From contig JAGDWI010000003.1 of assembly GCA_023269825.1 (NCBI GenBank), forward strand, positions 384,118 to 423,660: 39,543 nt of DNA, in the 5' to 3' direction. Numbering within the stretch: the stretch's first letter is position 1; each line of letters begins with the position of its first letter. Both the position numbers and the translations under genes were made by a program. Origin of the DNA: Desulfurococcaceae archaeon (GTDB taxonomy: Archaea > Thermoproteota > Thermoprotei_A > Sulfolobales > Desulfurococcaceae). Below are positions 21,392 to 39,067 of the stretch, piece after piece. Under the pieces are notes generated by a model. That model ran no database searches and had not been told where the DNA came from. It was given only the letters and a program-made list of their open reading frames with translations.

Positions 21392-21428
21392 GTGTTAGGT
21401 AGATAAACCCCTCTCAACTACCTAACAC
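21392..21428. promoter_or_regulatory. 37-bp palindromic operator, copy 1
   Basis: GTGTTAGGTA (21392-21401), a 17-bp spacer, TACCTAACAC (21419-21428). Symmetry extends one base outward and inward (12-bp arms in all). It lies between the divergent pilus operon and the plus-strand cluster. Confidence 0.85.
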
Positions 21429-21486
21429 CTACGGATCGAGGAATAGGGGTTTTCGCAGTGCATTAAACCCCTCCCCGCTCCAAATC

Positions 21487-21523
21487 GTGTTAGGTAGAAA
21501 GAAGAATAATTTATACCTAACAC
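21487..21523. promoter_or_regulatory. 37-bp palindromic operator, copy 2
   Basis: GTGTTAGGTA (21487-21496), a 17-bp spacer, TACCTAACAC (21514-21523). The spacer contains a TATA-like AATTTATA on the plus strand, so a bound protein would block it. It starts 95 bp from the start of copy 1. Confidence 0.85.
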
Positions 21524-21525
21524 TG

Positions 21526-21641
21526 CTTCAATGGATGAGTCTCCGTTGAAGCCCTTGTTTGAAAAACTAACCCCGGTTCTTCAATTGAAGATCATGGAGA
21601 GCTCTATTGAAGATCATGGTGGAGACGTGGAAAAATCCACG
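21526..21641. repeat. Cluster of short inverted and direct repeats
   Basis: CTTCAA/TTGAAG occurs five times in 90 bp: CTTCAATGG (21526) opposes CCGTTGAAG (21543-21551); CTTCAATTGAAG (21579-21590) is a perfect palindrome; ATTGAAGATCATGG occurs at 21584-21597 and 21606-21619. A CGTGGA-AAAA-TCCACG hairpin closes the cluster at 21626-21641. It lies directly after operator copy 2. It may be an origin, a transfer origin or a structured leader. Confidence 0.6.
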
Positions 21642-21662
21642 GGCTCTGAAACATGGCTATAA
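21531..21662 (+). CDS. Possible 43-residue peptide after operator copy 2
   Basis: ATG at 21531 opens a frame (MDESPLKPLFEKLTPVLQLK ... GSETWL) that ends in TAA at 21660-21662. It starts 8 bp after the operator, whose spacer contains a TATA-like sequence about 20 bp upstream. Composition is protein-like but no family is recognised, and the repeats within it may exist for structural reasons, so the frame could be accidental. Confidence 0.25.
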   Translation: MDESPLKPLFEKLTPVLQLKIMESSIEDHGGDVEKSTGSETWL

Positions 21663-21746
21663 AACCCCGCCTGCTGTGATTTATTTGACTTAGATCTCGA
21701 ATGTCCCGTAGCCATGTGATCTTTGAGGTTTCACTTGGATCGAGTG

Positions 21747-21755
21747 TTATTTAAG
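21747..21755 (+). promoter_or_regulatory. TATA box of the 21782 gene cluster
   Basis: TTATTTAAG lies 27 nt (from its last base) before the GTG at 21782; a G-rich stretch (GGGGGT) just before the start may serve as ribosome-binding site. Confidence 0.5.
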
Positions 21756-21781
21756 CACTGGGTATATCCTAGGGGGTAGAT

Positions 21782-22141
21782 GTGTCTTTTGAGTCACGCT
21801 ACCATAGATTCGTGTATATTAGCGACGTGAGTGTCTTGAATGAGCGTGTCTGGGGTTTTCTACGTGTTAAACACATGCTCTACTTGTTCCTAGCGGTTAT
21901 ATTCCTTTGGCGTGGCTACAGTGCCGGCAGCCCCGCAATGCTCAGCATGGGTGCTGTGGCAGGGGCTCTCGCATTGCTGTCCGCACTGTTCTCGAGGGGC
22001 TCAATGAGCTTTGAGGCGAGGCTACTAGCACTCATAGTGTCAGCGATATCCTCAATGGGCTCTAGTAAAGAGAAGAAGCCTGGAAAAACCAAGGGAAAGG
22101 AGCATGTGGAAGAGGAGAACAAGCGGGGCTCTGGGGATTAG
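21782..22141 (+). CDS. Two-helix membrane protein, possibly PrgI/VirB3-like
   Basis: 119 residues: a soluble N-terminus, a membrane hairpin (about 30-72, KHMLYLFLAVIFLWRGYSAG then AMLSMGAVAGALALLSALFS) and a highly charged Lys/Glu tail. Small proteins with one hairpin near a soluble N-terminus (PrgI/VirB3 type) accompany VirB4 ATPases in conjugation systems, and this layout fits, but sequence similarity is not demonstrable by eye. Its stop shares one base with the GTG start of the next gene, so the two are translationally coupled. Confidence 0.5.
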   Translation: MSFESRYHRFVYISDVSVLNERVWGFLRVKHMLYLFLAVIFLWRGYSAGSPAMLSMGAVAGALALLSALFSRGSMSFEARLLALIVSAISSMGSSKEKKPGKTKGKEHVEEENKRGSGD

Positions 22142-24210
22142 TGTTGAAGATTGTGCTGGGGTATAGCGTTAAAAACTACATTGAGCTACCACGGCCATCC
22201 AGCCCTTCTTTATCCCCGTTTAACTACGAGCACATTGTATTAACCGATTATGCGTTGCAACCCGAGATCACTCCATCAGGCATACACGGAGACCCAGTTT
22301 TCATTAAAACCCCTGAGTGCGCGCACGGTATATACATTAGTAAGGATAGACTAGAGTGCAAGGCAGAAGCCGGCTTCTCTCACTCCGTGCATGGAGTAGC
22401 AGTCCTAAAAGGATCCCGGGGCCCTCGAGTAGTCACTAGTAGCGAGGCATTGGACTGCGAGAAGATTGTTTATGATTCGAGGCCCGGGGCTTTTATTGTC
22501 GCCTGCTTCGACGGCTCCTCTACAAGTGTCATCACCGCGGACTACTCGGGTTTAAGGGTACACAGGGGCCTCTACAAGAGGAAGCCTAGTAGCGTATACG
22601 TGGGGTTTGACTCATATAGTGTTGTATTCGAGGACCACAGGTCTATCATTATATATAGCGACAACCCAGTAGAGATCGGGATACCTATATTAGCAACAGC
22701 ATATACTGGTAGCAGCTTCTACGGGGTCTCGGGTAAGTGGCTTGTGAAAGTGAGTGGCGACGGATCCTACGAGCCCCTAGTCCTACTCGGGGATAACTAC
22801 GAGTTTGCAGGAGTCTCCAATAGCCTACCAGTATTCAAGGGCAATGGGAGGCTCTACAGGCTCGAGGGAGGAGCACTAGTTGAACTAGACTTCGTTAAGG
22901 CCCCTGTGGAGAGGGCTAGTGTATATGATATCGTGGTAGTGGATAATGGGAGGCTGCTAAAGGCCTACGACCCCTCTGGGAAAACCTTTCTAGAGCTACC
23001 AAAGGAGCCTGAAGTAAATTGCTATGCCACGAGGTATGGGGTTTTGTGCTGCAGGAGCGGGCTCTGCGGTCTAGTGGAGCCGGGGGTTTCAACCATTAAC
23101 ATCGAGGCCAGTAACAACGAGGGCCACGAGCTACGAGTAGCCAGCGATGTACCAGTATTGCTTAGCTACGGGGATAAGCAGCATTACTGCAGGCCCGGGG
23201 AGCCATTTGTAATTAGAGAGGAGAAAGCCAGTGTGTTGAAGAGGCTTGTCTTCGAGGCCGGGGTCACTCACTTGCTTAGTAGTGAAAGCGTCACGGTTGC
23301 ATCGCCTCCAGCCAAAGTCTCGGTGGAGGCGCATGGCAGGGTGTATGAGAGCACGGGGCTACATGAGTGTGGTGGATTATCCCTAGTGGAGTTAATGATT
23401 AAGAGGGTTGAGAAGCCGGGTAGAGTCAAGCTCGAGGCTCTCGGCAGAGAGGTCTCCGAGGGCCCATCCACAATATGCACAGACAGAAACCCCGGCACCC
23501 TGCTCATCGAGGCAGTTGACGCGGTCTCAGGCGATAGAGTGCGAGTAGTAGATCTGAAGCCGGAGCGAGTATTCATCCCCGAGCCAAAGTATGGGGTTAA
23601 AATAGATCATGGAGAGGGAAGCAGCACGATCGAGCTTAGAGTCGAGGACGGAGAGCTAGTAAAGGCTGTTTTAAAGTGTAGGAATGGAGAGGCCCTGTTG
23701 AAGCCTGGTTTGAACACAGTAAAGGAGTGTGTCCTGCCAGCCGAGGTGCACTTAACCCTGAGGAAGCAGGGGTTTATACATAATTATAAAAAGAGTATAG
23801 CAATACCAAGCCTCCTCGATAAGCTACTCAACGCCATGGAGCCGGGGCTACATGAGGTTAGAGTAGGTGGGTTCAAGCTGAGGTATGTTGCAACACCATA
23901 TCCGGACATAGTCCCTGTAACGGGGATACGTGCTGTAATAGGAAACAACGTCGAGCTGATATTCAGGAGCAAGGTCGCGGGCCGGGTAGCAGTAGTCTCG
24001 CAGACCGGGGTTAAGTGGTACCAGGTGAGGCCGGGATTAAACAGTGTGTTAGCTCCGGGATTTAACGACACATACCACTTGGTATTCGACACAGGGTACT
24101 CGAGACACATCTACAGAGTAGAGATACCAATAATTACTCAGCTACAAGTAGCGGAAGCTCAAGCTAAGGCTCTTTTGAGGGAATTAAAAATAGCTGGGTT
24201 AAAAGCTTAA
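22141..24210 (+). CDS. Large beta-rich protein of unknown function
   Basis: 689 residues without signal peptide or membrane span. The first about 310 residues show repeated strands and turns with short aromatic/valine-rich blades (YVGFDSYSVVFED, YGVSGKWLVKVSG, YDIVVVDNGRLLKAYD), suggesting a beta-propeller. The remainder looks like consecutive Ig-like domains (for example SVTVASPPAKVSVEAHG), and a short helix (QVAEAQAKALLRELKIAG) ends the protein. About ten cysteines may form disulfides. It is translationally coupled to the preceding membrane hairpin protein, so it could be a cytoplasmic or exported partner of the transfer machine. I do not recognise a family. Confidence 0.7.
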   Translation: MLKIVLGYSVKNYIELPRPSSPSLSPFNYEHIVLTDYALQPEITPSGIHGDPVFIKTPECAHGIYISKDRLECKAEAGFSHSVHGVAVLKGSRGPRVVTSSEALDCEKIVYDSRPGAFIVACFDGSSTSVITADYSGLRVHRGLYKRKPSSVYVGFDSYSVVFEDHRSIIIYSDNPVEIGIPILATAYTGSSFYGVSGKWLVKVSGDGSYEPLVLLGDNYEFAGVSNSLPVFKGNGRLYRLEGGALVELDFVKAPVERASVYDIVVVDNGRLLKAYDPSGKTFLELPKEPEVNCYATRYGVLCCRSGLCGLVEPGVSTINIEASNNEGHELRVASDVPVLLSYGDKQHYCRPGEPFVIREEKASVLKRLVFEAGVTHLLSSESVTVASPPAKVSVEAHGRVYESTGLHECGGLSLVELMIKRVEKPGRVKLEALGREVSEGPSTICTDRNPGTLLIEAVDAVSGDRVRVVDLKPERVFIPEPKYGVKIDHGEGSSTIELRVEDGELVKAVLKCRNGEALLKPGLNTVKECVLPAEVHLTLRKQGFIHNYKKSIAIPSLLDKLLNAMEPGLHEVRVGGFKLRYVATPYPDIVPVTGIRAVIGNNVELIFRSKVAGRVAVVSQTGVKWYQVRPGLNSVLAPGFNDTYHLVFDTGYSRHIYRVEIPIITQLQVAEAQAKALLRELKIAGLKA

Positions 24211-24286
24211 CCTGCTCTCAACGAGCTTCTTTGCATCATTTTAAATCTCAAGGGATGTATAAATAAATGAGAGTTAGTGGTTTTTT

Positions 24287-24757
24287 ATGAAAAAGGTCAT
24301 CGTTAGTAAACCCCTTAAAGGCATTAGTACTTCGGGGAACTACTTAGTTGTCGAGTTCGACTCGGGTGTAGTGAGTATTGAAAAACCGAGGCACATAGGT
24401 CTCTACATACGGCCAGGTGTCCTCGACTCGCGTGACATTACAGGCATTGTTGGAGCAATGTTCTTCATGCTAGTTATCGGTGCATTCTTAGATTATTTTA
24501 ACCAGTTTCCACTGAGTGTTTGGTACACGTTTATGATATTATTGAGCGGTGCGGTATTGCTCGGTCAACTCGTGTTTCCTAGAAAGGTTCTAGTGATTGG
24601 AACCAGTAATGAGACCTACTACTTTACGCACCCACATGGAATCGATGAGAAACTAATCAAGGAGATAGTGGCAAAAACATATTCTGTTTTTATCGATAAA
24701 GAGGCTCAAACAACCAGCGACAATGCAAGGGCTAATAACACATCCAGGGTGAGCTAG
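24287..24757 (+). CDS. Two-pass membrane protein, unknown
   Basis: 156 residues: a beta-rich N-terminal domain of about 50 residues, two membrane helices (about 56-75 and 84-105), and a soluble C-terminal region with sequons near the end. The N-terminal pattern (KGISTSGNYLVVEFDSGVVS) resembles small cytoplasmic beta domains placed before a membrane hairpin. A TATA-like ATGTATAAATAA at about 24255-24266 precedes the ATG. One base separates its stop from the transglutaminase-like gene, so the two form an operon. Confidence 0.65.
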   Translation: MKKVIVSKPLKGISTSGNYLVVEFDSGVVSIEKPRHIGLYIRPGVLDSRDITGIVGAMFFMLVIGAFLDYFNQFPLSVWYTFMILLSGAVLLGQLVFPRKVLVIGTSNETYYFTHPHGIDEKLIKEIVAKTYSVFIDKEAQTTSDNARANNTSRVS

Positions 24758-24758
24758 T

Positions 24759-25790
24759 ATGCCCAGTAGAACCGTGGAGAAGGCCCTGGCTCTCATAGTA
24801 GTATTCTTCATGGTGTCGAGTGCCAGCGTTCTTGTGATGAAGTACGCTAATTGGAGAATAGCTGCTCCTCCATATAATACACGTTTAGAACAAACAATCG
24901 CAGACTATCTGAGAGAGTTTCCAGCTAAGAGTGAAATACGCGAAAAAACCATTGATATTTTGAAGGAGTATCTGGAAAAATCAAGTGTGATCTTACAAAG
25001 GTCAATCCAAGTTAGTGCTGGGAGCTCTTCTAGAGTTGAATTAACACTTCATAGCGGAATCATATATGAGCTTACAGTAAGCGTTAGCGACTGTTTTATT
25101 GGTTCATGCGATATTGGCCTAAAGCTCTTAGATTCAAATTACCGCATTGCAATCGTGAATACATCTACAGGCTCGGGTTTTATAATGGGCCGCTACAGTT
25201 CTCTACGCGTCAACTTCACACTACACCCACTCGAAGAGAAGGGAGTATTCTACTTGGAACTAGACAATTCATATTCCATTATTACGTCTAAAGATGTTTA
25301 CATTACGCTGAGAGCTTATTACCCCAGTTACGCTTTCGATGATGAATACTTCAAGGTCTTCGCTATTGGTCATTGGGTTTCTATGAATATAAGGTATATT
25401 AGTGACCCACTCACAGAAAACGAGTATATTGCACCACCAAACGAGACCCTCAATGTAGGGGCTGGAGACTGCGATGACTACGCTGTCTTACTGGCCACTC
25501 TCTATAGGAGTGTGGGGTTGAATGCCGTTGTAGGCTTAATTGACACTAATGGCGACAATAAAGTAGACCACGCAACAGCACTAGTCTATTTTACTGGAAA
25601 CACCACTGAGATTTTAAACGGTATTTCAAAGTGGGCTAGTGTCCTAGGCATAGAGGTCGAGAAAATCTCCTATTTCAAAGCAGATGGAGGAGTATACCTA
25701 ATAGTAGACCCACCCATGTCTACATACAAGAACAATCCATGGAGCATATACCACACATCTTACAAACTAATCAAAATCATTAAACCATAG
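24759..25790 (+). CDS. Membrane-anchored transglutaminase-like protein
   Basis: A 343-residue protein with an N-terminal signal/anchor (about 9-27), an external beta-domain (about 85-190) and a C-terminal transglutaminase-like core. The catalytic triad is visible: Cys in GAGDCDDYAVLLATLYRSVG (about residue 237), His in KVDHATALVYF (about 269) and Asp in YLIVDPP (about 319). Such domains act as cysteine proteases or peptide/isopeptide transferases. Outside the cell it could process or cross-link pilins or surface proteins of this element; that role is inferred from context only. ATG start. Confidence 0.78.
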   Translation: MPSRTVEKALALIVVFFMVSSASVLVMKYANWRIAAPPYNTRLEQTIADYLREFPAKSEIREKTIDILKEYLEKSSVILQRSIQVSAGSSSRVELTLHSGIIYELTVSVSDCFIGSCDIGLKLLDSNYRIAIVNTSTGSGFIMGRYSSLRVNFTLHPLEEKGVFYLELDNSYSIITSKDVYITLRAYYPSYAFDDEYFKVFAIGHWVSMNIRYISDPLTENEYIAPPNETLNVGAGDCDDYAVLLATLYRSVGLNAVVGLIDTNGDNKVDHATALVYFTGNTTEILNGISKWASVLGIEVEKISYFKADGGVYLIVDPPMSTYKNNPWSIYHTSYKLIKIIKP

Positions 25791-26001: not shown

Positions 26002-26259
26002 TTACTCTTTTGCAACTTCTTCTCTTTTACCCTCTGCTTGCTTCTTCTCCGCCTCTCCCTCTACTACTACCTCTAGGTAGTGTTTCCTCTCGAGGTGTAG
26101 CTTGGCTGCTGAGAGTGCCTTGGCTGGGCTGAACTCTGCTACTACGTATCCGCAGTGTGGGCAGATCCAAACGTGCATTGTCATGGGCCTTACATCGCTC
26201 ATTCTCAAGACTATGGTTCCTACTTTCTCTTGTTTAGCTTTCTCTGGTTTTTGAGCCAT
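26002..26259 (-). CDS. Small C2H2 zinc-finger protein
   Basis: 85 residues. One C2H2-like finger, CPHCGYVVAE followed by about 13 residues and HLERKH, lies between a short beta-like N-terminus and a Lys/Glu-rich C-terminal tail. Single-finger proteins of this size are common in crenarchaeal plasmids and viruses and are presumed DNA-binding regulators. It starts with ATG about 30 nt after a minus-strand TATA-like TTTATATATAAA (about 26288-26297). It is a candidate for binding the element's palindromes but nothing proves it. Confidence 0.8.
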   Translation of the reverse strand: MAQKPEKAKQEKVGTIVLRMSDVRPMTMHVWICPHCGYVVAEFSPAKALSAAKLHLERKHYLEVVVEGEAEKKQAEGKREEVAKE

Positions 26260-26320: not shown

Positions 26321-26695
26321 TTAAAGCTTCTGGTAGTATGCGTATGCCGTGGTTATCTCATCTGTCTCTGGATCGCAGATTAGCCTGTAGACTACTGCAA
26401 TCCTCGTGAGGTATAAAATGTGCACTGTTACAACGCTCACAGTCTTCCCATTCAGGGTCTTCTCCTCCTCGAAGAGCCATATCCCTATCACATTTTCTAT
26501 TGCTGGCTCATAGGGGTTTAGTATAACGGAGTAGTTTGAGCCATTGGCCTCTAAGATGTCTCTGACTACGCTATTCAAGTATATGACTGCAGCCCTGTAG
26601 TCGTGGACGCGTATCATCGAGTTCATGGCTTTAAAAAACTCGCTTCGAGTATATGTTTTACGTGGGGTTTGAATCTGAACCTGTGTCTGGGTCAT
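26321..26695 (-). CDS. Small protein of unknown function
   Basis: About 124 residues from ATG 26695 (MTQTQVQIQTPRK); a longer frame reaches 26719. It is soluble and mixed alpha/beta with helix RSEFFKAMNSMIRVHDYRAA and strands VVTVHILYLTRIAVVYRLIC. No family is recognised. It is transcribed divergently from the large surface-protein gene, and the palindrome at 26824-26860 lies between them. Confidence 0.6.
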   Translation of the reverse strand: MTQTQVQIQTPRKTYTRSEFFKAMNSMIRVHDYRAAVIYLNSVVRDILEANGSNYSVILNPYEPAIENVIGIWLFEEEKTLNGKTVSVVTVHILYLTRIAVVYRLICDPETDEITTAYAYYQKL

Positions 26696-26823
26696 ATATC
26701 TCAACCCCCATATAAACAAATATCCAAACAGGGGTTAATAAACTTTACGGTCTCCACGGGGGCATTGTTCAAAAGAGAAGTAGGGGTTTACAAGGGGCCG
26801 CACTCGCAGGGGCTTCTATATGG

Positions 26824-26860
26824 GTGTTAGGTAGAAAGAGGCTCAATCAATACCTAACAC
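26824..26860. promoter_or_regulatory. 37-bp palindromic operator, copy 3
   Basis: GTGTTAGGTA (26824-26833), a 17-bp spacer, TACCTAACAC (26851-26860), in the divergent intergenic region between the genes starting at 26695 (-) and 26945 (+). Confidence 0.85.
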
Positions 26861-26916: not shown

Positions 26917-26954
26917 TTTAAAACACGGCTCCTATTAGAGTGGGGTGTTAGGTA
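26917..26954 (+). promoter_or_regulatory. TATA box and half-operator at the start of a surface-protein gene
   Basis: TTTAAAA at 26917-26923 predicts transcription starting near 26945. GTGTTAGGTA at 26945-26954 is one intact operator arm; its first three bases are the GTG start codon. No second arm follows at the standard 27-bp offset. Confidence 0.6.
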
Positions 26955-28948
26955 TGGGTTTTCTGAGGCTTCTCGCGTGGTTGCTTGTACTAGTGGTCGT
27001 TCTTGGATTGGCTTTTAGCTTGATGCCTAGCTGGGAGAATTGGCCTGCTAGCTCTCCGTGGTCGGGGTTTATTACTGCCCCTGGGTTGAGGAAGGTTCAA
27101 GCGTGCCCGGTCTCAGACACCTCTATTAACCCGGAGCCCTGGGATCTATACAATAGCCGCTGGTTCAACCTATCATATGTATTGGAGCTACTGTCGAGCT
27201 ACATGGATCCAGTCGAGTACTATGGGCTCTACGCTTCTCTAACGGGCCTAGCAGCCGTGAAGCTTGTCTTCAACTGCACGGGCTACACTCTGTACGAGCT
27301 ACACCCACTACCCATGAGCGAGAGAGACGACGAGGGGTTGGCAGAGCTCAATATAACGCTCTGCATGCCCCACTACTACCTAATACCGCCAATTGAGCCA
27401 AGGCTTACCTCTAATACCACCTTTGAGGAGACAGTAGTATCAATCCACAACCCCTGCACCAACACGAGCGAGGAGGCTGTAGTCCCCTTGAACATCCTCA
27501 CCTACGCACCAACAGCGAGGCTGAACATCTCTACTCGCATGGAGAGCGTGTATAATCTAACAGTATGGGGCTACGCTAATGGCTCAGTAGACTACTCTCT
27601 CGAAGGCCAGGTAGTAGATGAGAGCTGTAGCTATGACCCGGGGCTGAATAAAACCGTTTGCAGTGTAGCTATATACAATATATATATTATTAATGTAAAC
27701 TACACGCTCGGCATAGTAGTTGATAACGAAACAATACTCGAAGACTACACGGGCACAACTAGGTTCACAGCAAGGAGCAGTGGGAGCTACAGAGAGCTCT
27801 GCATAGAGGACGGGTACTACAATGGGACGGGGCCATACGCGAGGGCATGCACTAACATCACTGTGGAGGCCAACAATACGAGGGTGGAGAACTCTACGCA
27901 CGTAGTCTACACTACAGAGTACTACATCGCGGGAGCCGCTGTAGCCACCTGGACACGTGGATTGAGGATACCGAGCATGGTGGAGGCCTCAGTGTACCTA
28001 GATGGATTCCAGGTGTTAACGGGGTTCCTAGACACATTGAAGCTAATGGCTGGGAGTAGAGCATTCTCCATGAACGAGTCTGGATTAGTGGAGAAACTAG
28101 TATTCAGCAACATAACCGAGACCAGGCTACATAACATTACTGTTTATATAAGCGACTACATAGGCTTCACAACCGGCATTAAATCCCCGAGCAATGAGAA
28201 GCCGTTTGGAGTATTGGCATTCAATAGAACACTGAGAATGGCAGAGATAACAGTTAAAGCAGAGCCCGTGGAGCCACGGGTCTGGGAGTGGGGCTCAGTC
28301 AAAGACCTGGGAGTAACCGTAGAGGCCTCAATACAATACCACTACCCAGACCCCTCCACGATAAACCTATATGAAATTAAGAAAGCCATAACCCCTAACC
28401 CCGCTGAGAACCTACTCCAATACCTAACACTAGCCTACATACACGACAAGCTAGTAAGCATAGTAGAGTCGAGCCCTATGAGTGAGTATAGAGACGCATA
28501 CCTATGGCTCCTAGCAGCACAAATACCAATAGCAATGAAGAACTGTAGCCGACACGAGTCCCCGAAGCCACTGCTCGACGCACTATGCGAAGCCTGCGGA
28601 AGCAATGAAGAGCGAGTGTGGATACAGGGCAATATAACAGGATTCACACTAGAGGTTAGCACAGCCACGGGCCTGGTTAAATGGCCCTCCCTCACTAATG
28701 AGACAATAGTGGAGACTCCAATAGTGTATGCTAATATAACAAGCTACCCAGAGCTCTGGCAGCTATACAATGAGACATTGAAGACTCACCTAGCACACCC
28801 CGTGGGAGGCAAGTACCTAGTATACTACGACCCCGTGGAGAACACAGTGTTCTGCGACTGGGATAGGCTAGTAGAAGAAGTAGAACTGCCAATACCAACA
28901 CAGCAACCTGAGGAAACACCACCAGAGATCCCGCCAATGCCCGTATAG
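26945..28948 (+). CDS. Large exported, glycosylation-rich protein
   Basis: 667 residues with an N-terminal signal/anchor (LLAWLLVLVVVLGLAFSLM, about residues 8-26), then a long external region with more than 20 N-x-S/T sequons, strand-rich in the middle and helical after about residue 480, and a Pro-rich end (PTQQPEETPPEIPP). No C-terminal membrane span. GTG 26945 agrees with the TATA spacing; ATG 26954 is an alternative. A fragment of its 3' end is duplicated at 29058-29230. It may be a cell-contact or mating-pair protein of the element; this is inferred from location only. Confidence 0.75.
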   Translation: MLGMGFLRLLAWLLVLVVVLGLAFSLMPSWENWPASSPWSGFITAPGLRKVQACPVSDTSINPEPWDLYNSRWFNLSYVLELLSSYMDPVEYYGLYASLTGLAAVKLVFNCTGYTLYELHPLPMSERDDEGLAELNITLCMPHYYLIPPIEPRLTSNTTFEETVVSIHNPCTNTSEEAVVPLNILTYAPTARLNISTRMESVYNLTVWGYANGSVDYSLEGQVVDESCSYDPGLNKTVCSVAIYNIYIINVNYTLGIVVDNETILEDYTGTTRFTARSSGSYRELCIEDGYYNGTGPYARACTNITVEANNTRVENSTHVVYTTEYYIAGAAVATWTRGLRIPSMVEASVYLDGFQVLTGFLDTLKLMAGSRAFSMNESGLVEKLVFSNITETRLHNITVYISDYIGFTTGIKSPSNEKPFGVLAFNRTLRMAEITVKAEPVEPRVWEWGSVKDLGVTVEASIQYHYPDPSTINLYEIKKAITPNPAENLLQYLTLAYIHDKLVSIVESSPMSEYRDAYLWLLAAQIPIAMKNCSRHESPKPLLDALCEACGSNEERVWIQGNITGFTLEVSTATGLVKWPSLTNETIVETPIVYANITSYPELWQLYNETLKTHLAHPVGGKYLVYYDPVENTVFCDWDRLVEEVELPIPTQQPEETPPEIPPMPV

Positions 28949-29030: not shown

Positions 29031-29067
29031 GTGTTAGGTAAAAACTTATGATGAGTTTACCTAACAC
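29031..29067. promoter_or_regulatory. 37-bp palindromic operator, copy 4
   Basis: GTGTTAGGTA (29031-29040), a 17-bp spacer, TACCTAACAC (29058-29067). It lies just before the decayed copy of the surface-protein 3' end and about 380 bp upstream of the VirD4-like gene. Confidence 0.85.
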
Positions 29068-29266
29068 CAACCCACCATCAAAGTTCCCGCAACTCATGCG
29101 ACTACCACTAACAAACAAGATAATGGCGAATGCCACAGTAGTCATAGCTGAGATCGAGAGCCACCCAGCACTCTGGCAACTATACAACAAGATGTTGGGA
29201 CTACACCTTGCAAAGCCCGTAATACTTCGGTATATCAGCACCACGTCCATCAATATCAGCCTTTAA
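29068..29266 (+). pseudogene. Decayed partial copy of the 3' end of the 26945 gene
   Basis: The frame read here contains ANATVVIAEIESHPALWQLY and NKMLGLHLAKPV, matching ANITSYPELWQLYNETLKTH and LAHPVGGKY near the C-terminus of the large exported protein. The rest of the gene is absent and the frame soon degenerates. The adjacent operator may have been duplicated together with it. It is probably non-functional. Confidence 0.65.
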
Positions 29267-29447: not shown

Positions 29448-32408
29448 TTGTTTGTCGAGCTCTTGCCCCGCGTTGGCTCGCCTAAGCCCCCGGTTGGCGT
29501 GCTTGGCCCTGGCTTCACACTATGTATTGTTAGCAATGGATATGGACTGCGTGTTTTCCTAGAGTCTACTGTGAGCCCTGAGACCCTGTCAAGGTTTTAC
29601 GGTGTCAAGAAGTCTAGCTACGAGGAGCTACTTAGAGTACTTGGTAATGAGGTTTGGGCTAGTGAAGCTAGGCTTAAACGCGAATTCGACTTCTACCACA
29701 CGGATATAGTGGTGGCCGACGTACCCGGCCTTGTGAATTCTCTCGAGGGTGCGGGAGGGGTCTGCGTCTCTGTATCACGTGATCCTGGCTTGAAAATGGT
29801 CTTTGCATCTAAGGCCTCCTCGCTACTAAGCAAGGCTAGTAAATACCACAATGAGTCTTTCAGGCTGCAGGGTAAGGAGCTGCAGAGGAGGATGAGTAGG
29901 ATCCTCCTGGGTAGAATCCTGGTGTTGGCTCCGAGTAAGAGCGAGTTGAAGGTTGTTGAGAAGCTTGTTGAGGCCTCTTGTAATGCCCCGTTGAAGTGGG
30001 AGAGGCGTAGAGTGAGGAAGCTGAGCGAGCTCGTGGAGCTACTTAAACCCCCGCAAACAAGTTTCTGGTGGAGGCTGCTTGGCGAGAGAAATAGAATTGT
30101 ATTCACAGAGGACCTTCTACCAGAGGTGGTCAAGCTCCCAGACCCCTCGCTACACAGAATAGGCTTCGTCCGCGGCTCACCGCTACCACTAGTTATACCG
30201 GTTAGAACAGGGGAGAAGACTTTTAGAATCGGGGTTTTAGAGGACGGCCGGGAGTTCAGGCTATCCATCGAGGACCTCTACAGGCACTGCTACGTGATAG
30301 GGCAAACAGGCAGCGGCAAAACCACGTTCATAAAGATGCTTGTGCACAGGTTGAGGGAGCTGGGAGACGCCTCCATTATTGTCATAGATCCCCATGGAGA
30401 CATGGCGTTGGAGCTAGCCAAGGAGATCCCTGGATCCCTCTACCTGCACCCAATCAGGAGCCCGTTTGGGTTAAACCCCTTGGATCTACCCAAGCACGAG
30501 AACAGGGACTTCGCGGTCACAATTGCCATAGATATCCTAATCGAGATGTTCAAGGAGGTGTTGAAGCTTATGGAGACCGCTGTGAACGTGAAGTACCTAT
30601 TACAGGTATTACTGAGGGCCTTTTACTCCAAGACGGATTCACCTACTCTCGCTATGCTCTACAACGCTATACTGGGGTTGTATAAGGGTGAGCTGGATCT
30701 AGATGTTGATGATGAGGAGTGGCAGAGGCAGCTCGAGGCACTTCAGAGCATGCAGGATCAGACTTTTATTAGTGCATTGTCTAGGCTTGAGGCCTATGCT
30801 CACGATAAGTTGCTACTCAAGTTGACTAGTAGGACCACGGTGGACTTTGAGGAGTTGATGTCCCCTGGCAGCATCACTATATTCTCAGTCCCGAAGGCAG
30901 ATCTAGGCGAGAACCTCGCTAGGCTCATTGCTTCAACAATAGTCATGAAGCTCTGGTTTGAAGTACTGGCCCGGGCTAGGTTGAATAAGCCCAGGACCCC
31001 TGTCTTCCTAGTTATAGACGAGTTCCAGTTTGTAGCTGACTTGCCAATTATTGACACTATATTGTCCGAGGCTAGGAAGTATGGTTTACACCTAGTCATA
31101 GCACACCAGCACACTAAGCAAATACCGGAGCAACTACTGCAGTCGGTGATGAGCAACTGCGCTGTCAAGGTAGCGTTCCAAGTCGGGGGAGGAGACATCA
31201 AGAAGCTCTCAGCAATGGACGCTTCATTCGCAGACTCCCTGGAGAAGGCCTTGACGGGGTTAACTATTGGCAAGGCGGTTGTCAAGCTGACAGCGAGGCC
31301 AGGAGAGCAACAGCCGCCACCAGTAGTTGTGCAAATGGACTACATCAAGCACGAGGCACGGAGAGAAGACGTATACACCACAGTATACGACCCCGGGGAA
31401 CCGGGGAGCCAGGATCTAAAGTCCCTGTTAAACCCGGTGTTAAAGTACATTGAGCCAGTTAAACCCCTCGAGTTCTACGCGCTATACACTCTACGAGTGA
31501 ACGGATCCCTGGCAATAGCGGACCTAGCCACGAGGCTCGGGGCCCGTAGAGAAGACGTTGAGGAGGCCGTGAACACGCTGGCTGGAAGGGGCTACATAGA
31601 GGTCTACAGGGAGGGAAACAAGAAGGTGGCGAAATACATTAAGGGACTATACAGGGGCCTGAGGAAGGCCGCTCCAAGCGAGGAGGGCTACAAGCTCGCC
31701 AAGAAGGTACTACTATATTACGCTAGGAGGGGATACATTGTTGCACCCGTTAGACAGGACCCGGGTCTCTCCTCGAGGCCTGACCTAGTAGCGGTGCCGG
31801 TGGATAAGTCTACTTGGAGGCCCATTTACTCTAAGGCGATAGCAGTAGAGGTTGAGAGCTGCAACGAGGTTGAGACGCACCCGGAGCAAGTAGCACATAA
31901 CTGGGTCAAGGAGAGCGTTAGGGACTTCGCCGAGGTACACACGTGGACTTGGAATACATGCCTCAATAAGTTAAAGCAAATATATGAGAAAGCCTATGTA
32001 GACAAGGCCAAGGTAAAAATATTCAGCACTAAGCCACCGGTAGAGAATCCCGCTAAGAGACAGACGGCGCAGCGACAGCCATTAAAGCCCCTAGAGGTTT
32101 CTCCAAAAACACCATTAAAGGGCCCAATAGTTGAACACGTTGAAACAGTGCAGGAGGTATTACAAGAGATTGAGAGGGAGAAGCCCGCGGAGACCACTAT
32201 AGTTGAATCCAGGGAGAAGAGAGAGGCTTCTTGTAGTGGTGGCCGCGTGGAATTCAAGCTTAGTGATGGGAGAGTGGTGTGTGTTCAAAGAGACTTAGCA
32301 GGAGTGCTGAGAGTATTCGCTGAGAGTGGTTATAGAGTTGAAGCCTCTAAGTCGAGGATTGTCGTCTACGATGAGCGCGGTGAAGAGGTCTTCTCGAGTA
32401 GCTTCTGA
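29448..32408 (+). CDS. VirD4/HerA-like ATPase with winged-helix and nuclease-like C-terminal domains
   Basis: 986 residues. The ATPase core has Walker A IGQTGSGKTTF with Lys 291, then IVIDPHGDM, and Walker B FLVIDEFQF with Asp 524/Glu 525, followed by a conserved ARKYGLHLVIAHQ sensor segment; this is the HerA/FtsK class used as conjugation coupling proteins. A winged helix follows (about 675-730), then a domain with RPDLVAVPVD (Asp 779) and AIAVEVESC (Glu 801, Glu 803), the pattern of PD-(D/E)xK-type nucleases but with E instead of K. A charged linker and a small beta domain end the protein. It probably recruits or pumps DNA to the transfer channel. Confidence 0.85.
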   Translation: MFVELLPRVGSPKPPVGVLGPGFTLCIVSNGYGLRVFLESTVSPETLSRFYGVKKSSYEELLRVLGNEVWASEARLKREFDFYHTDIVVADVPGLVNSLEGAGGVCVSVSRDPGLKMVFASKASSLLSKASKYHNESFRLQGKELQRRMSRILLGRILVLAPSKSELKVVEKLVEASCNAPLKWERRRVRKLSELVELLKPPQTSFWWRLLGERNRIVFTEDLLPEVVKLPDPSLHRIGFVRGSPLPLVIPVRTGEKTFRIGVLEDGREFRLSIEDLYRHCYVIGQTGSGKTTFIKMLVHRLRELGDASIIVIDPHGDMALELAKEIPGSLYLHPIRSPFGLNPLDLPKHENRDFAVTIAIDILIEMFKEVLKLMETAVNVKYLLQVLLRAFYSKTDSPTLAMLYNAILGLYKGELDLDVDDEEWQRQLEALQSMQDQTFISALSRLEAYAHDKLLLKLTSRTTVDFEELMSPGSITIFSVPKADLGENLARLIASTIVMKLWFEVLARARLNKPRTPVFLVIDEFQFVADLPIIDTILSEARKYGLHLVIAHQHTKQIPEQLLQSVMSNCAVKVAFQVGGGDIKKLSAMDASFADSLEKALTGLTIGKAVVKLTARPGEQQPPPVVVQMDYIKHEARREDVYTTVYDPGEPGSQDLKSLLNPVLKYIEPVKPLEFYALYTLRVNGSLAIADLATRLGARREDVEEAVNTLAGRGYIEVYREGNKKVAKYIKGLYRGLRKAAPSEEGYKLAKKVLLYYARRGYIVAPVRQDPGLSSRPDLVAVPVDKSTWRPIYSKAIAVEVESCNEVETHPEQVAHNWVKESVRDFAEVHTWTWNTCLNKLKQIYEKAYVDKAKVKIFSTKPPVENPAKRQTAQRQPLKPLEVSPKTPLKGPIVEHVETVQEVLQEIEREKPAETTIVESREKREASCSGGRVEFKLSDGRVVCVQRDLAGVLRVFAESGYRVEASKSRIVVYDERGEEVFSSSF

Positions 32409-32827: not shown

Positions 32828-33148
32828 CTAGGCTCTTAATAGAGCAGAGCGGAGCTCCTCTATTTCCTTTTTGCTCAGGTTTAGGCTCCATAGTAGGCTC
32901 TTAGTGAATAATAGGTTTTCGGATTTGACTACTCCCTTCTTCTCTAGTCTCCGGAGCACGTATCTCACGAGGCTGATCTTTACTGGTTGCCTCAGCTCAG
33001 AGACCACTTTCACGTGTAGCTCGCTGGTGGTTCTAGATCCGTTCACCAGCTCCCTGAGGACTATAACTGTGATCTTCTTCATAACTCCCTCTCCATTCCC
33101 GGTTATATACCTCTTAACGCTCTCAACAACGTTAACCCTCCTAGGCAT
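32828..33148 (-). CDS. Winged-helix DNA-binding protein
   Basis: About 106 residues from ATG 33148 (MPRRVNVVESVKRYI); the open frame reaches GTG 33160. A wHTH is visible: VIVLRELVNGSRTTSELHVK, then VRYVLRRLEKKGVVKSEN as recognition helix and wing, and a C-terminal helix (SKKEIEELRSALL) that probably dimerises. The minus-strand TTTTTAAG at about 33179-33186 is the likely TATA box. Being a dimeric DNA-binding protein encoded inside the element, it is one of the better candidates to bind the 37-bp palindromes, although no palindrome lies at its own promoter. Confidence 0.7.
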   Translation of the reverse strand: MPRRVNVVESVKRYITGNGEGVMKKITVIVLRELVNGSRTTSELHVKVVSELRQPVKISLVRYVLRRLEKKGVVKSENLLFTKSLLWSLNLSKKEIEELRSALLRA

Positions 33149-33160
33149 ACCAGGCAACAC

Positions 33161-33593: not shown

Positions 33594-35414
33594 ATGCCTG
33601 ATAACTATAAGTCGAAGCGTGTTACCTGGTCTTGGCTTAGATTGGAGGGGGTTAGCTTCACTATTCTACCATTCGAGGACAGGGACAGTGTGCTCAGGGA
33701 CTACGCGGGGTTATTAGCGAGTATTAAGCGGGGTGTCTTGCTGGCGAGGAGGGTTGACTACGAGTACAAGTACTCAGACTACTCCTTCAGCGTCAGCGAC
33801 ACAGCCTTCTACCTCAGGGCCCCTGCTGGGAGCCAAGTAGTATTCTTCAATCCCCGGCCCGAGGAGCCTGCGAGGCCCCGGGTCAAGAGGCTTGTAAACC
33901 CCGCCACATTAGAACTAGAGGACGGCTCCTACGCGAGGGTCTTAGTGGCCTACGGGTTCCCCGCGGGCCTCCCAGAGGGCCTACTGTACACCCTGTACAC
34001 CGAGGTCTCAGAGGCAGCGTTGGTATTCAGGGAGGTAGACAAGGTGAAAGCAGTCCGCATGGTTGAGACAGCTAGGCGCAGGAGGATCACCAGTAGTAGC
34101 CAGGGAGTTACAGAGGCCCATGAAGCAGGGGCACTCGAGGAGCTAGCATCAAGGGTTTTATCCGGGTCAAGCCTATTCGAGTTCTACCTATACTTCATAA
34201 TAAAGGATAAGGAACCAAAATCCCTCAACACCAGGGCCAACACGGTTAAATCACTCCTCAAAGGCTACGGAGTAGACGTGGATGCGCCCCCGATCCAGCG
34301 GGAGCTATACAACCTCGAGACATGTCTAGGGGTTATGTGTATTGAGAAGCACTACGCTGACTCGGAGAGCCTTAAACCACTATTTCCATTGATAAGCGAG
34401 GAGCTACACGACCCAAATGGAGTATTCCTCGGGGTCTCAGGGACGGGGAGCCCGGTGCTGCTAGATGTCTGGTCTAAGCCAAACCTCAACTTCGTGATAG
34501 TAGGTGTAACGGGGTCTGGTAAGTCAATGACTGCGAAGGTCTACTTGAAGCGGCTCCGCGAAGTAGACGATAAAATACTCTACGTGGGAGTAGACCCTGA
34601 GTCAGAGTACACGCGTGTAGCGGGTCTCCTCGGGGCACAGGCTGTTGAGATACATGAAAACCAGAGGCTGGGATTAGACCCCATCAAGCTAATGCGTAGC
34701 GGGGCCCTAGAGATCGGCCAAGTAGCGGACATAATATCAGAGGTCTACGGGGTTCCCGAGAACCTGCACGGGGTCTTAAGGAGGGAATTATTCATGAACA
34801 GCGACTTCGCAGACTCATTCGTGGAGTTCGCGAGCAGCGTCAAAGACCCAGAGCTCTCAAAGTACCTCCAGGGAGCCACGGTTCCACCGGACAGCCTAGT
34901 CTACGAGGGGGAGCCGCCGCCACTAGCAGGCAGCGTGATATTTGGATTAAAGAACGTGAGGAGCAAGAGGCTCAAGATACTTATATCAGCGTTGATCTCC
35001 TCGCACTCATACAACACCCTGCTAACCAAGGCCCGGAGAAGCGTCTTCTTCGTCGACGAGGCCTGGCTATTCATGGAGACACCTAGCATAGTCTCACTAT
35101 TCGAGAACCTGGCTAGGCGTGGAAGGAAGCACGGAGCAGCATTCCTGTACATAACACAGAGAGCCGAGGACCTCGCGAGGACACCGCAGGGGAGGACAAT
35201 ACTAGAGCAGAGTGCCACGGTATTATTGCTCAGGCAGGAGCCTGAGGGCCGTGACGCGTGCAAGGAGATATACAAACTAAGCGACTCAGAGGCAGAGTAC
35301 CTAGTGAACGCACCCGTAGGCTCGGGGATACTCAAAGCGGGGAGAAAGAGGATTACGATACAGGTGCTGCCAACCGAGGGGGAGCTGAAGGCGTTCTCCA
35401 CAACGGTCTCCTAG
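33594..35414 (+). CDS. VirB4/TraC/CedB-like conjugation ATPase
   Basis: 606 residues. An N-terminal domain of about 280 residues, typical of VirB4, is followed by Walker A GVTGSGKSMTAK (Lys 310) and Walker B VFFVDEAWLFM (Asp 488/Glu 489), then the characteristic ITQRAEDLARTPQGRTILEQ segment and a C-terminal region with YLVNAPVGSGIL. VirB4 energises pilus biogenesis and substrate transfer in T4SS, and the crenarchaeal homologue CedB drives DNA import. ATG start, leaderless from the TATA box at 33559. It heads the run of transfer genes reaching 37972. Confidence 0.9.
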   Translation: MPDNYKSKRVTWSWLRLEGVSFTILPFEDRDSVLRDYAGLLASIKRGVLLARRVDYEYKYSDYSFSVSDTAFYLRAPAGSQVVFFNPRPEEPARPRVKRLVNPATLELEDGSYARVLVAYGFPAGLPEGLLYTLYTEVSEAALVFREVDKVKAVRMVETARRRRITSSSQGVTEAHEAGALEELASRVLSGSSLFEFYLYFIIKDKEPKSLNTRANTVKSLLKGYGVDVDAPPIQRELYNLETCLGVMCIEKHYADSESLKPLFPLISEELHDPNGVFLGVSGTGSPVLLDVWSKPNLNFVIVGVTGSGKSMTAKVYLKRLREVDDKILYVGVDPESEYTRVAGLLGAQAVEIHENQRLGLDPIKLMRSGALEIGQVADIISEVYGVPENLHGVLRRELFMNSDFADSFVEFASSVKDPELSKYLQGATVPPDSLVYEGEPPPLAGSVIFGLKNVRSKRLKILISALISSHSYNTLLTKARRSVFFVDEAWLFMETPSIVSLFENLARRGRKHGAAFLYITQRAEDLARTPQGRTILEQSATVLLLRQEPEGRDACKEIYKLSDSEAEYLVNAPVGSGILKAGRKRITIQVLPTEGELKAFSTTVS

Positions 35415-35417
35415 TGC

Positions 35418-35426: not shown

Positions 35427-35444
35427 CCCAACTGTTTTTAATGG

Positions 35445-35678: not shown

Positions 35679-35679
35679 C

Positions 35680-35973
35680 GTGTGCAGGGTGTTGAAGATC
35701 CTAGACCCCTCCACCATGAAGCCCTTCACATTGAGGGACTGCGGGGACACGCTGGTGGTTGAAATGGATAATATAGTCATCGTGTTGAATAAGAGGCTTG
35801 AGAAAACCCATATAGCACTGAGGAGCCTGGAGATAGGGCTGACTCTCGACGCACCACTGGAGGCCATCGAAGAGTTCGAAAGACTACTGAAAAAGAGGCT
35901 TAAGAAGCTTGTAGTTGTCTCCGAGGAGTCCGAGGAGGTGGGTTCTAGTGGTGGATGTCTGGGATCTTGTTAG
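35680..35973 (+). CDS. Small soluble protein of the transfer cluster
   Basis: About 97 residues from GTG 35680; the frame also allows GTG 35671. A beta-rich N-terminal half (FTLRDCGDTLVVEMDNIVIV) precedes a helix with many Lys/Glu (EEFERLLKKRLKKLVVVSEE). No family recognised. It overlaps the start of the VirB6-like gene by about 26 bp, indicating coupled translation. Confidence 0.55.
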   Translation: MCRVLKILDPSTMKPFTLRDCGDTLVVEMDNIVIVLNKRLEKTHIALRSLEIGLTLDAPLEAIEEFERLLKKRLKKLVVVSEESEEVGSSGGCLGSC

Positions 35974-37972
35974 CTGGGGGCTCTGGATCGGCTGGGCAGT
36001 AGCCATAGGCTCATTCACAGTTGGAGTAATACGTAGGGCCCTGGGACAAGAGGGCTACGAGAGGCTGCTGGCTGGCTCACTAGCCGGGATACTGGTGTTG
36101 GCGTTCGGATGGGGACTAGTCCAAGCGATTTATGGTGGCGTAGTCCCCGGTGTACCGTATGGGTGGGTCTTCTACGCTGTGAGCGGTGCACTACTAGTCA
36201 CGTCATCAATATACCTCGCACTTGGGAGGGCTGAGGGAGCAAGCCACTTGGTTGCAGCACTATTAGTTGTTGGACTCGGATTCTTCGCAGCCTCCATCGC
36301 GAGCGGTGTTAACACCGGCCCCGGGGGCCAGTTGTCTGTGAGCGTCTACCCATCGGACACCATGATCGAGAGCGGTAAGCAGTTAGTCCTCAGGGTTAGA
36401 GTAGACGGTGGGAGCCCGCCGTACAGTGTGACCATTGACTGGGGTGACGGGAGCCCGCCCAGCGGTGGATCTATCCAGAACGAGGGGGAGTGGAGTAAGA
36501 CGTACCGTATTCCAGACAATAATGCGACAGCGTCTTTCCCAGTCCGCGTAACCGCTGTCGACAGCGAGGGGAGGACTGGCTGGAACACCTTCTCCATCAT
36601 CGTGCAGAACAAGGAGTGGTGCCCACTCGGCTGGCCATTCAACTTCTTCTGTGGTTTTTATAAGTTAGTCTCCTCGATACTCCCCGCACTAGACGTGCAG
36701 AAGCTTGTTGAGTGCCCATTGTTCCCAATGGATGAGGGGGACCCCATCCACAAGATCTACACTATGATACTCGGGGTCTCGATGAGTGCTCTAGGCTTGT
36801 TCCTAGCATTCAACCTCGTGTGGAGAGCTGCAGGCGAGGAGGGGTTGCTCAGTATAGCTGACTCAATAAAGGACGCTGTAATAGTGGTTGCACTAGCGCT
36901 CCTAGCACCATACGTCTACAACGCGACTGCTCAGGCATTGAACACTATTAGCTACAGCCTCATAGGCGACATAGACGTGGGCTGGGTCCTAGTCTGGATA
37001 TTCGCGCAGCTCGGCCTAGCCATCGCAATAGGCTACTTCGTCCCCTTCATAGCCAACTACGGAGTATTCCTAGCGATCACACTGTTCCTCGCAAGCCTAA
37101 CCGTCTACGTAAGATACATCCTAATACTGACGCTGATAACGGCTTCTCCCCTACTAGCAGTCAGCTACTTACACCCAGGCCTCAGGTCTATGGCAAGGCA
37201 CGCGGTGAGCCTCTTGGCGGGGTTGATGATAGCGGGGCCTATAGCTGCGGTGTTCATGGTGATACTCAGCAAGACTATACCAGGCCAGAACATAGTCTTC
37301 GGGATACTATACCCACTAATAGTCGGGACACTGCCAACAGTGCTGGGAACCTTCGGTGGAGGAGCAGTCTCAGCAGTAGCGGGAGCGGTTAAATCGGGTG
37401 TTACAAGCCTAGTAGGAGTAGTAGCCAGTAAAGGAGCACAGGTATCAACTACAAGTACAAGCACAGGTACTGCCCCTAGCGGAGTAGTAAAGCTGAATAC
37501 CCCGAGAACCACAGTAGCAGCTAAAACGCCTACTCAAACAGAGGCAGCACCAGGCGTCAAGGCAATAACCATACCAGTAAAGCCAGGGCCAATAATAACC
37601 CCTACAACCGTGAAGAAGTCTATTCAAGAAGCAAGGATGAAAGGCACGGTAGCGGAGACACTAGCTGAGGCGAGAGAAATAGGCCCCGGAATATCGTTCA
37701 CTCTCCAAGGCCCAGAAGCGTACAAGAAGCACGCGGAGGAGCTGGCAAAAGAGCCAGAAATACATCCAAAGTGGGAGGCGTTCAAAGCAGGGATTAAAAC
37801 ACTCGGAGGAGAAGCAGGTAGAAGAGCATGGACTAATATAAAAGCCCTGGCGAGAGATACCAAGGAAGCGTTCAAATATCATGTGGGGAGAGAGTTTAAT
37901 ATTAAACTTGGTCATCTCTCAATACATGGCTTTAGGAGTGGTGGAGATGCTAAGCATATGGATTGGGCCTAA
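35948..37972 (+). CDS. VirB6/CedA-like channel protein with PKD-like insert and charged tail
   Basis: About 674 residues. Four membrane helices (about 6-120) precede a PKD-like domain (about 128-221; SPPYSVTIDWGDGSPP is the PKD signature region), then five to seven more helices (about 265-505), a Thr/Ala/Pro-rich linker and a charged helical tail (about 581-655). A polytopic protein in this operon position corresponds to VirB6/CedA, the inner-membrane channel. I choose GTG 35948, 7 nt after GAGGAGGTG, instead of the longer frame from TTG 35915. The tail is duplicated at 7089-7391. The 3' end overlaps the converging gene by 4 bp. Confidence 0.75.
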   Translation: MVDVWDLVSWGLWIGWAVAIGSFTVGVIRRALGQEGYERLLAGSLAGILVLAFGWGLVQAIYGGVVPGVPYGWVFYAVSGALLVTSSIYLALGRAEGASHLVAALLVVGLGFFAASIASGVNTGPGGQLSVSVYPSDTMIESGKQLVLRVRVDGGSPPYSVTIDWGDGSPPSGGSIQNEGEWSKTYRIPDNNATASFPVRVTAVDSEGRTGWNTFSIIVQNKEWCPLGWPFNFFCGFYKLVSSILPALDVQKLVECPLFPMDEGDPIHKIYTMILGVSMSALGLFLAFNLVWRAAGEEGLLSIADSIKDAVIVVALALLAPYVYNATAQALNTISYSLIGDIDVGWVLVWIFAQLGLAIAIGYFVPFIANYGVFLAITLFLASLTVYVRYILILTLITASPLLAVSYLHPGLRSMARHAVSLLAGLMIAGPIAAVFMVILSKTIPGQNIVFGILYPLIVGTLPTVLGTFGGGAVSAVAGAVKSGVTSLVGVVASKGAQVSTTSTSTGTAPSGVVKLNTPRTTVAAKTPTQTEAAPGVKAITIPVKPGPIITPTTVKKSIQEARMKGTVAETLAEAREIGPGISFTLQGPEAYKKHAEELAKEPEIHPKWEAFKAGIKTLGGEAGRRAWTNIKALARDTKEAFKYHVGREFNIKLGHLSIHGFRSGGDAKHMDWA

Positions 37973-38505
37973 TCGCTTTTTTCTACGAGTACTAGTCCGC
38001 ACTCGTTATGTAATATTCCAAGCTCTATGATAACTACATGGGCTTGTTCTGGAACATCTTTTTCCGGGTTCTGGAACTTCTCCGGACGCCATTCGGCCAT
38101 TCGGTAAATAATGAGAGTTGCAAACTCATCGAGTGCAACTCCATCCGGATATCCCGCTAGCTCCAAGAGAACCGTTTTCCTCAACCACCCAACACCCTTG
38201 AACCTTACACCATCACTTCTTTTAACAAGGATCCACCTATCACCAACTTCCTCGACGCTGTAGTTTGGGTAAAGCTTGAACTTCTCCATCTCCGCGATCC
38301 ATGCCTCGTAGACGTGGTCTTTCTCGATGACATCGAATGGAGGATAGAGACTAGACATCCTCGGCTCCCTTCTCATATCAACAACAATAGTGCCATCTGG
38401 CTCAACCTCGGCCCACGCTAGTGCCGGCCTATACTTGATATTCCCCTTTTCATCAACATAGGGGATTTCTTTTCTTAGAGCATATTTGGATAGGTCTTGC
38501 CCCAT
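37969..38505 (-). CDS. Soluble protein of unknown function
   Basis: 178 residues, alpha/beta, no membrane span or signal. Notable segments are YRPALAWAEVEPDGTIVVDM, then DRWILVKRSDGVRFKGVGWL and LDEFATLIIYRMAEW. No family recognised. ATG start. It reads in the same direction as the gene at 38528-39022, 23 bp downstream of it, so the two are probably co-transcribed from the operator-controlled promoter at 39052. Confidence 0.6.
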   Translation of the reverse strand: MGQDLSKYALRKEIPYVDEKGNIKYRPALAWAEVEPDGTIVVDMRREPRMSSLYPPFDVIEKDHVYEAWIAEMEKFKLYPNYSVEEVGDRWILVKRSDGVRFKGVGWLRKTVLLELAGYPDGVALDEFATLIIYRMAEWRPEKFQNPEKDVPEQAHVVIIELGILHNECGLVLVEKSD

Positions 38506-38527
38506 GCGGGATCCCCGTATAAGTAAG

Positions 38528-39022
38528 TCAAGTAGTATTTAAAGCACTAGACCCCCGGGCCGCCTCCGCGGCTGAAACCGCACTGAGCTGTGTTAGTTTC
38601 TCAACGAGTTCTCTCAGGGCCTTGTCTAGTTCCTCGTCCACTCCCCTGAGCCTCACTGCGGCTGCCACGGCTTCGCTTGCAGCTCTAGCCGCGTTCTTCA
38701 CCGTGTTGTATCCCTCCGGGGATTTACCGAGATAAATGCTTCTCCGCTTATCTCTACCCGTGCACTTGAGGTACCAGTAGTAGTACGGCTTCTTAGCCCT
38801 ATTGTAGACCACGGTGTACTCCTCGGTGCAACCCCGCAACTCCTCGTACACGCTGGCTAATCCATAAACCCCGAGTTCTCGTAGAGCATGGTCGAGTATT
38901 TTGCAGGCCTCTCCAAGCCTACTCCTCGCCTCCTCGAGAGAAGCGAGCTTCGCGGGGTCTACAGAGACCCCCTTCAAGAGATCCCTCACCCGGGGTTTTC
39001 CACTGTCTTTCTCCACCCGCAC
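38528..39022 (-). CDS. Probable DNA-binding protein under operator control
   Basis: 164 residues: an N-terminal helix pair (SLEEARSRLGEACKILDHAL), a central segment KKPYYYWYLKCTGRDKRRSI-YLGK that looks like the short basic beta motif (DUF6788-like) of presumed nucleic-acid-binding proteins, and a long helical, Ala-rich C-terminus suited to dimerisation. GTG 39022 lies 30 nt from a TATA box that is itself enclosed by the 37-bp palindrome, so the gene looks tightly repressed, possibly by its own product. That autoregulation is inferred. GTG 39016 is an alternative start. Confidence 0.6.
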   Translation of the reverse strand: MRVEKDSGKPRVRDLLKGVSVDPAKLASLEEARSRLGEACKILDHALRELGVYGLASVYEELRGCTEEYTVVYNRAKKPYYYWYLKCTGRDKRRSIYLGKSPEGYNTVKNAARAASEAVAAAVRLRGVDEELDKALRELVEKLTQLSAVSAAEAARGSSALNTT

Positions 39023-39030
39023 TCACCCAA

Positions 39031-39067
39031 GTGTTAGGTATGCAAAAGGGACTTATATACCTAACAC
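39031..39067. promoter_or_regulatory. 37-bp palindromic operator, copy 5, enclosing a TATA box
   Basis: GTGTTAGGTA (39031-39040), a 17-bp spacer, TACCTAACAC (39058-39067). Minus-strand TATATAAG at 39052-39059 lies in the spacer, 30 nt before the GTG of the 38528-39022 gene; occupancy would exclude TBP. Confidence 0.88.

Follow-up and report, generated by a model that had tools for sequence, protein, structure and literature searches.

F55 of SSV1, SvtR of SIRV and AvtR of AFV are ribbon-helix-helix (RHH) autorepressors of archaeal viruses, each with several sites (PMC5569661). AspA of pNOB8 and SegB of Sulfolobus are dimeric proteins that bind palindromes upstream of their own genes and act with a ParA/SegA ATPase (PMC5120986). 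In Thermococcales, chromosome flipping has been described for an element-encoded integrase, a full tyrosine recombinase (PMC5495485).

Here we describe spaced palindromes in a 39,543-nucleotide stretch of the genome of a Desulfurococcaceae archaeon (hereafter the window) and the protein encoded beside one of them, at 38528-39022. Like F55, SvtR and AvtR, this protein is small, element-encoded and a proposed autorepressor with several sites in its element, where it would interfere with the TATA/BRE region (PMC5569661). However, those proteins are ribbon-helix-helix repressors of short or tandem operators, whereas here a three-stranded sheet between long helices is predicted, and the sites are 37-49-bp palindromes with rigid, genome-specific spacing, most of which are not at promoters. 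With AspA and SegB the locus shares an archaeal protein and palindromes upstream of its own gene (PMC5120986), binding here being proposed. AspA, in contrast, is a winged-helix protein on a continuous 23-bp palindrome (PMC5120986), and no ParA/SegA ATPase is present in the loci examined here. As in the Thermococcales account, there are inversions in hyperthermophilic archaea that are attributed to something other than native homologous recombination, although no full tyrosine recombinase is common to the present loci (PMC5495485).

Palindromic sites and their host element

An earlier note on the window listed five copies of a palindrome, in which the two 10-bp arms never vary and enclose a spacer of exactly 17 bp. 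Our scan of the window finds all five:

21392-21428, no strand: palindromic site 1, with an exact inverse copy, spacer included, at G000:C1:7811-7847
21487-21523, no strand: palindromic site 2, with a TATA-like TTTATA at the spacer end and the ATG of a short frame 8 bp beyond
26824-26860, no strand: palindromic site 3, between the divergent frames 26321-26719 (minus) and 26945-28948 (plus)
29031-29067, no strand: palindromic site 4, behind 26945-28948, with a homologous site in the Thermosphaera-like genome G081
39031-39067, no strand: palindromic site 5, covering the core promoter of 38528-39022

The note had seen no other complete copy in the window; none is added when up to three mismatches are allowed, and dinucleotide shuffles of the window contain none. 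In the whole genome, of 1.50 Mb in three contigs, the exact copies number eight, the five above and three at the start of contig C1 (C1:1060, C1:2400 and C1:7811); copies with one to three mismatches and matches to a reversed control pattern are both absent from it. The motif is thus not a common feature of the rest of the genome, but is confined to the element described below. The universal core of the arms is GTGTTAG, and the core centres are 30 bp apart in the window element. An Rfam scan of the window returned only tRNAs, and therefore no known RNA family lies at the sites. A search of the open-access literature gave no relevant match for the motif. The words TTTAAACCCC and GGGGTTTA recur in the flanks of most window sites.

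All eight sites are placed within one integrated element of ~38.7 kb in a tRNA-Ser gene, across a deduced contig join, because the contigs break in tnpB and the tRNA-Ser half-copy matches the intact tRNA of C1. The window ends where contig C3 ends, within an IS607-like tnpB, and the start of C1 likewise falls within a tnpB gene; one IS607-like tnpA/tnpB copy explains the break. The intact tRNA-Ser(TGA) lies at C1 16424-16509 and adjoins an archaeal integrase. In addition to the features below, the element encodes a transglutaminase-like protein and a PriX-type primase with a helicase-like protein.

17304-17358, minus strand: 3' half copy of tRNA-Ser(TGA), the att end of the integrated element
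19915-21327, minus strand: type II/IV secretion (pilus) ATPase, whose promoter is just left of site 1
29448-32408, plus strand: TraG/VirD4- and HerA-like ATPase of the host element
33594-35414, plus strand: VirB4/TraG-like ATPase of the host element
38528-39022, minus strand: proposed cognate site-binding protein of 164 aa, with the core YYYWYLK...RSIYLGK

Copies of IS607-like tnpA/tnpB are found at 39127-39543 of the window and at 1-1011, 6129-7753 and 13843-14232 of L009; two of the tnpB genes terminate ~50 bp from a palindrome.

A protein family that accompanies the sites

The note had attributed the palindromes to one element-encoded regulator and named three candidates, among which it is 38528-39022 whose relatives, by sequence, accompany the sites in other elements. 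Its core, in the form YYYxYLK..R..SIYLGK, is common to one protein of the G073 element and to a protein of a Candidatus Methanomethylicota contig (L048) that lies directly behind two sites, and a profile search of the order gave further relatives. Palindromes with GTGTTAG arms stand beside or around many of these (G086, G085, G095, G068, G058 and G122), and several family genes are bracketed by sites. The other two candidates, the winged-helix-like 32828-33160 and the small Cys/His protein 26002-26259, are without relatives in the other site-bearing loci compared.

The family was previously unclassified and has no Pfam assignment. For 38528-39022, no family in Pfam or PHROGs scores above cut-off, and Pfam yields no RHH family, the prediction being helix, three strands and helix instead. 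Its match to PF13356, the Arm DNA-binding domain, is weak (E 0.006; 17.1 bits against a cut-off of 27) and falls short of the curated Pfam threshold for membership. A predicted three-stranded sheet that may bind DNA would recall PF13356 of tyrosine integrases; unlike those integrases, 38528-39022 has no catalytic domain and has coiled coils on both sides. Modelling of the L048 relative gives a helix, three strands and a long helix (pLDDT 80), the model of 38528-39022 itself is poor (pLDDT 59), and a Foldseek search of the PDB returned no significant match. Members of the family are predicted to combine coiled coils with a sheet of three tyrosine-rich strands, in the order helix, three strands, long helix. 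Neither a conserved Arg/His catalytic set nor an HUH or other nuclease motif was seen in the family protein, and a peptide scan of IMG/VR found no relatives.

Co-occurrence and spacing

Within the order (214 genomes), good copies of the palindrome were found in G073, where seven lie in a provirus-like element, and in G081, G085, G101 and G110. An exact-match search of public genomes and viral contigs found the two sites of L048, and Hyperthermophilic Archaeal Virus 2 (HAV2, GU722197, L060) carries two exact sites, at 3201-3237 and 9486-9522. Family matches at E<1e-9 are present in 14 of 398 genomes of the phylum. GTGTTAG-N20..36-CTAACAC was found in 10 of these 14 and in 23 of the other 384 (Fisher p 3e-9), the latter rate being near the reversed-control background. 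Sites with no detected family protein are found in HAV2, the Thermosphaera-like genome, G110, G101 and G093; none of the HAV2 proteins matched the family, despite the complete HAV2 sequence, and the Thermosphaera-like and G101 loci look like remnants. The Thermosphaera-like G081 keeps dispersed remnants of the window's element.

Across all compiled sites the gap between cores is 23 to 28 or 32 to 35 bp (GTGTTAG-N23..28 or N32..35-CTAACAC), and none is of 29-31 bp. With these gaps the core centres lie about three or four helical turns apart. A gap of 23 is found in the window element, G073, HAV2, L048, G101 and G081; 24 in G086 and G095; 25 in G068 (eight copies), G093 and G085; 26 in G444 and G528, with two 27s also in G444; 34 in G409 (nine copies) and G437; and 35 in G122. 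Per-genome counts include 8x23, 7x23, 8x25, 9x34 and 12x26. Exceptions to this uniformity are G058 (mostly 26, range 25-28) and G012 (mostly 33, range 32-34), which vary by 1-3 bp, and G218, which has gaps of 24 and 34/35 in one locus. Within genomes the gap variance is 1.8, compared with 17.5 overall, and none of 20,000 permutations gave so low a value. Mapped on the protein tree, gap class requires a single change, and none of 500 shuffles needed as few. Spacer length is not tracked by protein length. Hence spacing is conserved in related elements, and neither of the two observations named in the note as refuting its reading, a motif equally common in coding DNA of the rest of the genome or unconserved spacing, is seen. 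Taken together, the uniform gap of each genome, the distribution of gap class on the protein tree and the co-occurrence tie the protein to the sites, and on these comparisons the sites are very probably bound by their element's own protein, 38528-39022.

Geometry at the family's own promoters

Eleven family genes have a site directly upstream, and in 10 of them a TATA-like hexamer lies between the arms. At six of these own-gene sites the start codon follows the downstream arm by 9 bp, and at eight by no more than about 12 bp; site 39031 belongs to the six, with TATATAAG (minus strand) between its arms. Other sites have a TATA-like box between the arms, on either strand, in only 7 of 70 cases (p 1e-7), a value that is indicative since the hexamer list was picked by eye. 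C1:2400, with TATATAAA between its arms, has the same layout and is a paralogous promoter. At the own genes the putative operator covers the core promoter. This geometry, read from sequence, is that of an autorepressor that would exclude TBP/TFB, and the family protein probably switches off its own gene.

Sites away from the own promoter

According to the note, the sites occupy intergenic or promoter positions. The intergenic part is borne out, with 63 of 80 sites between genes (as called from mechanical ORFs) in DNA that is ~88% coding. The promoter part holds only in part: site 29031 adjoins a duplicated gene fragment and has no clear promoter, and convergent gaps are not avoided, as convergent, divergent and tandem gaps hold 15, 16 and 32 sites against 12.8, 18.7 and 31.5 expected from gap lengths. 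In G409, sites are spread over seven contigs, and several are between converging chromosomal genes. Given this use of gap types as expected by length and the convergent sites of G409, a promoter regulon alone is insufficient. The duplicated fragment at site 29031 (29048-29266, just behind the site) is the end of gene 26945-28948.

Inversions with ends at sites

Inverse copies that include the spacer are not limited to 21392 and C1:7811. In G444 and G528, several site pairs are exact or near-exact inverse copies, spacer included, with unmatched flanks. Between these two genomes, two segments of ~300 bp are inverted with breakpoints at sites: the outer-left flank matches the outer-right at 0.87 identity as reverse complement versus 0.64 direct, and the inner segment matches at 0.92 inverted versus 0.62 direct, its own flanks being direct (0.90/0.98). 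The flanks in G101 are connected in the manner expected had the window's element undergone a 26-kb inversion between 21392 and C1:7811; the crossover would fall at some point within the 104-bp inverted repeat that surrounds the site. In G086 versus G085, near alba and reverse gyrase, a site-bracketed family gene is reversed between the same neighbours. Segments with ends at inverted sites are thus inverted in two clean G444/G528 cases, the 26-kb case and the gene flip. Because of these inversions, the sites are, by sequence comparison, recombination-prone, at least over evolutionary time. Tyrosine recombinases are near sites in G000, G073 and G218 only, and no recombinase was noticed beside the family genes of G444, G528 or G409.

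Discussion

From the sites, their spacing, their co-occurrence with the family and the promoter geometry, all of which can be read off the DNA, we infer binding, repression and bridging. The palindromes would be the cognate sites of 38528-39022, serving autorepression at its own gene and, at the other intergenic positions, DNA organising or bridging; we put the probability of this reading at roughly 0.77. One protein assembly would contact both GTGTTAG half-sites on the same DNA face, at a distance of three helical turns in the window element and four in another clade. Since the half-sites straddle the TATA box of the own gene, bound protein would shut out TBP/TFB and thereby limit how much of it is made. 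Elsewhere between genes, the sites probably serve, although here we are guessing, as dispersed points at which the protein organises or bridges element DNA, and a few of them may also regulate genes, as the promoter layout of C1:2400 suggests.

The note had favoured operators of an element-wide transcription regulon embracing the pilus, surface protein and accessory genes. The geometry at the own promoter, together with the paralogous promoter C1:2400, agrees with this, as do site 26824 upstream of the surface-protein-like gene and the several promoters targeted by known archaeal viral repressors (PMC5569661). A broad promoter regulon nevertheless sits poorly with a TATA-like box in so few of the non-own spacers and with sites in convergent gaps, including those between converging chromosomal genes of G409, and we consider it possible but doubtful. 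Partition, one of the note's alternatives, would make the palindromes centromere sites of a centromere-binding protein. AspA and SegB show that an archaeal centromere binder can be autoregulated and have palindromes in front of its gene (PMC5120986), and G073 and G528 have tandem site clusters. However, no protein with a ParA-type or deviant Walker A motif was found in the element loci examined, so the ParA-like ATPase partner required by ParABS, SegAB or AspA is absent from them and the classical form of the proposal lacks support; the sites of G409, moreover, are dispersed over chromosomal contigs. Partition is accordingly improbable. Small mobile palindromes akin to REP sequences, mobilised by a gene that they flank, might account for bracketed genes, intergenic dispersal and exact copies of a ~42-bp unit with unmatched flanks, but the spacers of most copies differ in sequence while their length is exact, and the family protein has no visible nuclease motif, which makes this explanation very improbable.

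Recombination was not among the note's alternatives, yet the evidence for it is real. On this account the palindromes are recombination sites flipped site-specifically with the family protein, the spacer being the region that must match. The ~300-bp inversions, the G101 flank joins, the opposite orientation of the family gene in G086 and G085 and the exact spacers common to inverted partners whose flanks differ all agree with it. The family protein, on the other hand, has no conserved Arg/His catalytic set, the majority of sites in a genome lack a partner with a matching spacer, template switching can flip short inverted repeats, and the 26-kb case falls within an inverted repeat of 104 bp. 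Known tyrosine-recombinase core sites are also far shorter than the 17-29 bp that separate the 10-bp arms. We regard site-specific flipping as unlikely. Either the protein bridges or recombines the DNA, or the repeats flip passively; both would be compatible with the sequences compared. A speculative extension, and rather unlikely, is a phylum-wide system built on a small coiled-coil protein that would synapse palindromes two by two, act as the ruler of their spacer length and effect or guide inversion, including that of its own gene. If true, elements and chromosomes would switch arrangement, down to the orientation of the family protein's own gene, and if the inversions are enzymatic, they would add a programmed-inversion mechanism to archaea.

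Returning to autorepression with DNA organising or bridging, the sequence comparisons lead us to propose a new element-borne family of DNA-binding proteins that would repress its own gene, act at non-promoter sites and be linked to DNA inversion. What emerges is a protein with its candidate sites, ready for functional study, from a family that occurs across Thermoproteota in conjugative-like elements, in a provirus and on chromosomes. It also poses a biochemical question, namely how one protein would read two half-sites at a distance, three or four helical turns, that is set by the clade. In Sulfolobaceae genomes, genes directly behind orc1/cdc6 code for distant relatives of 111-112 aa (L132 1294-1629 in G199; L141 5019-5357 in G204). 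No palindromes of the GTGTTAG kind were found near them; with these relatives, a chromosomal role could be tested in a tractable host.

Some further features of the window should also be noted. A fragment from the C-terminal part of 35915-37972 has a second, inverted copy at a distance of 30 kb (7089-7391 and 37698-37893, 87% DNA identity), and 8368-11670 encodes a secreted-like protein of 1100 aa with an internal repeat (68% DNA identity). At 12883-13220, a tRNA-Gly(TCC) lies beside a fragment that shares 72% identity with a portion of the integrase of the element, which is likely a trace of another integrated element.
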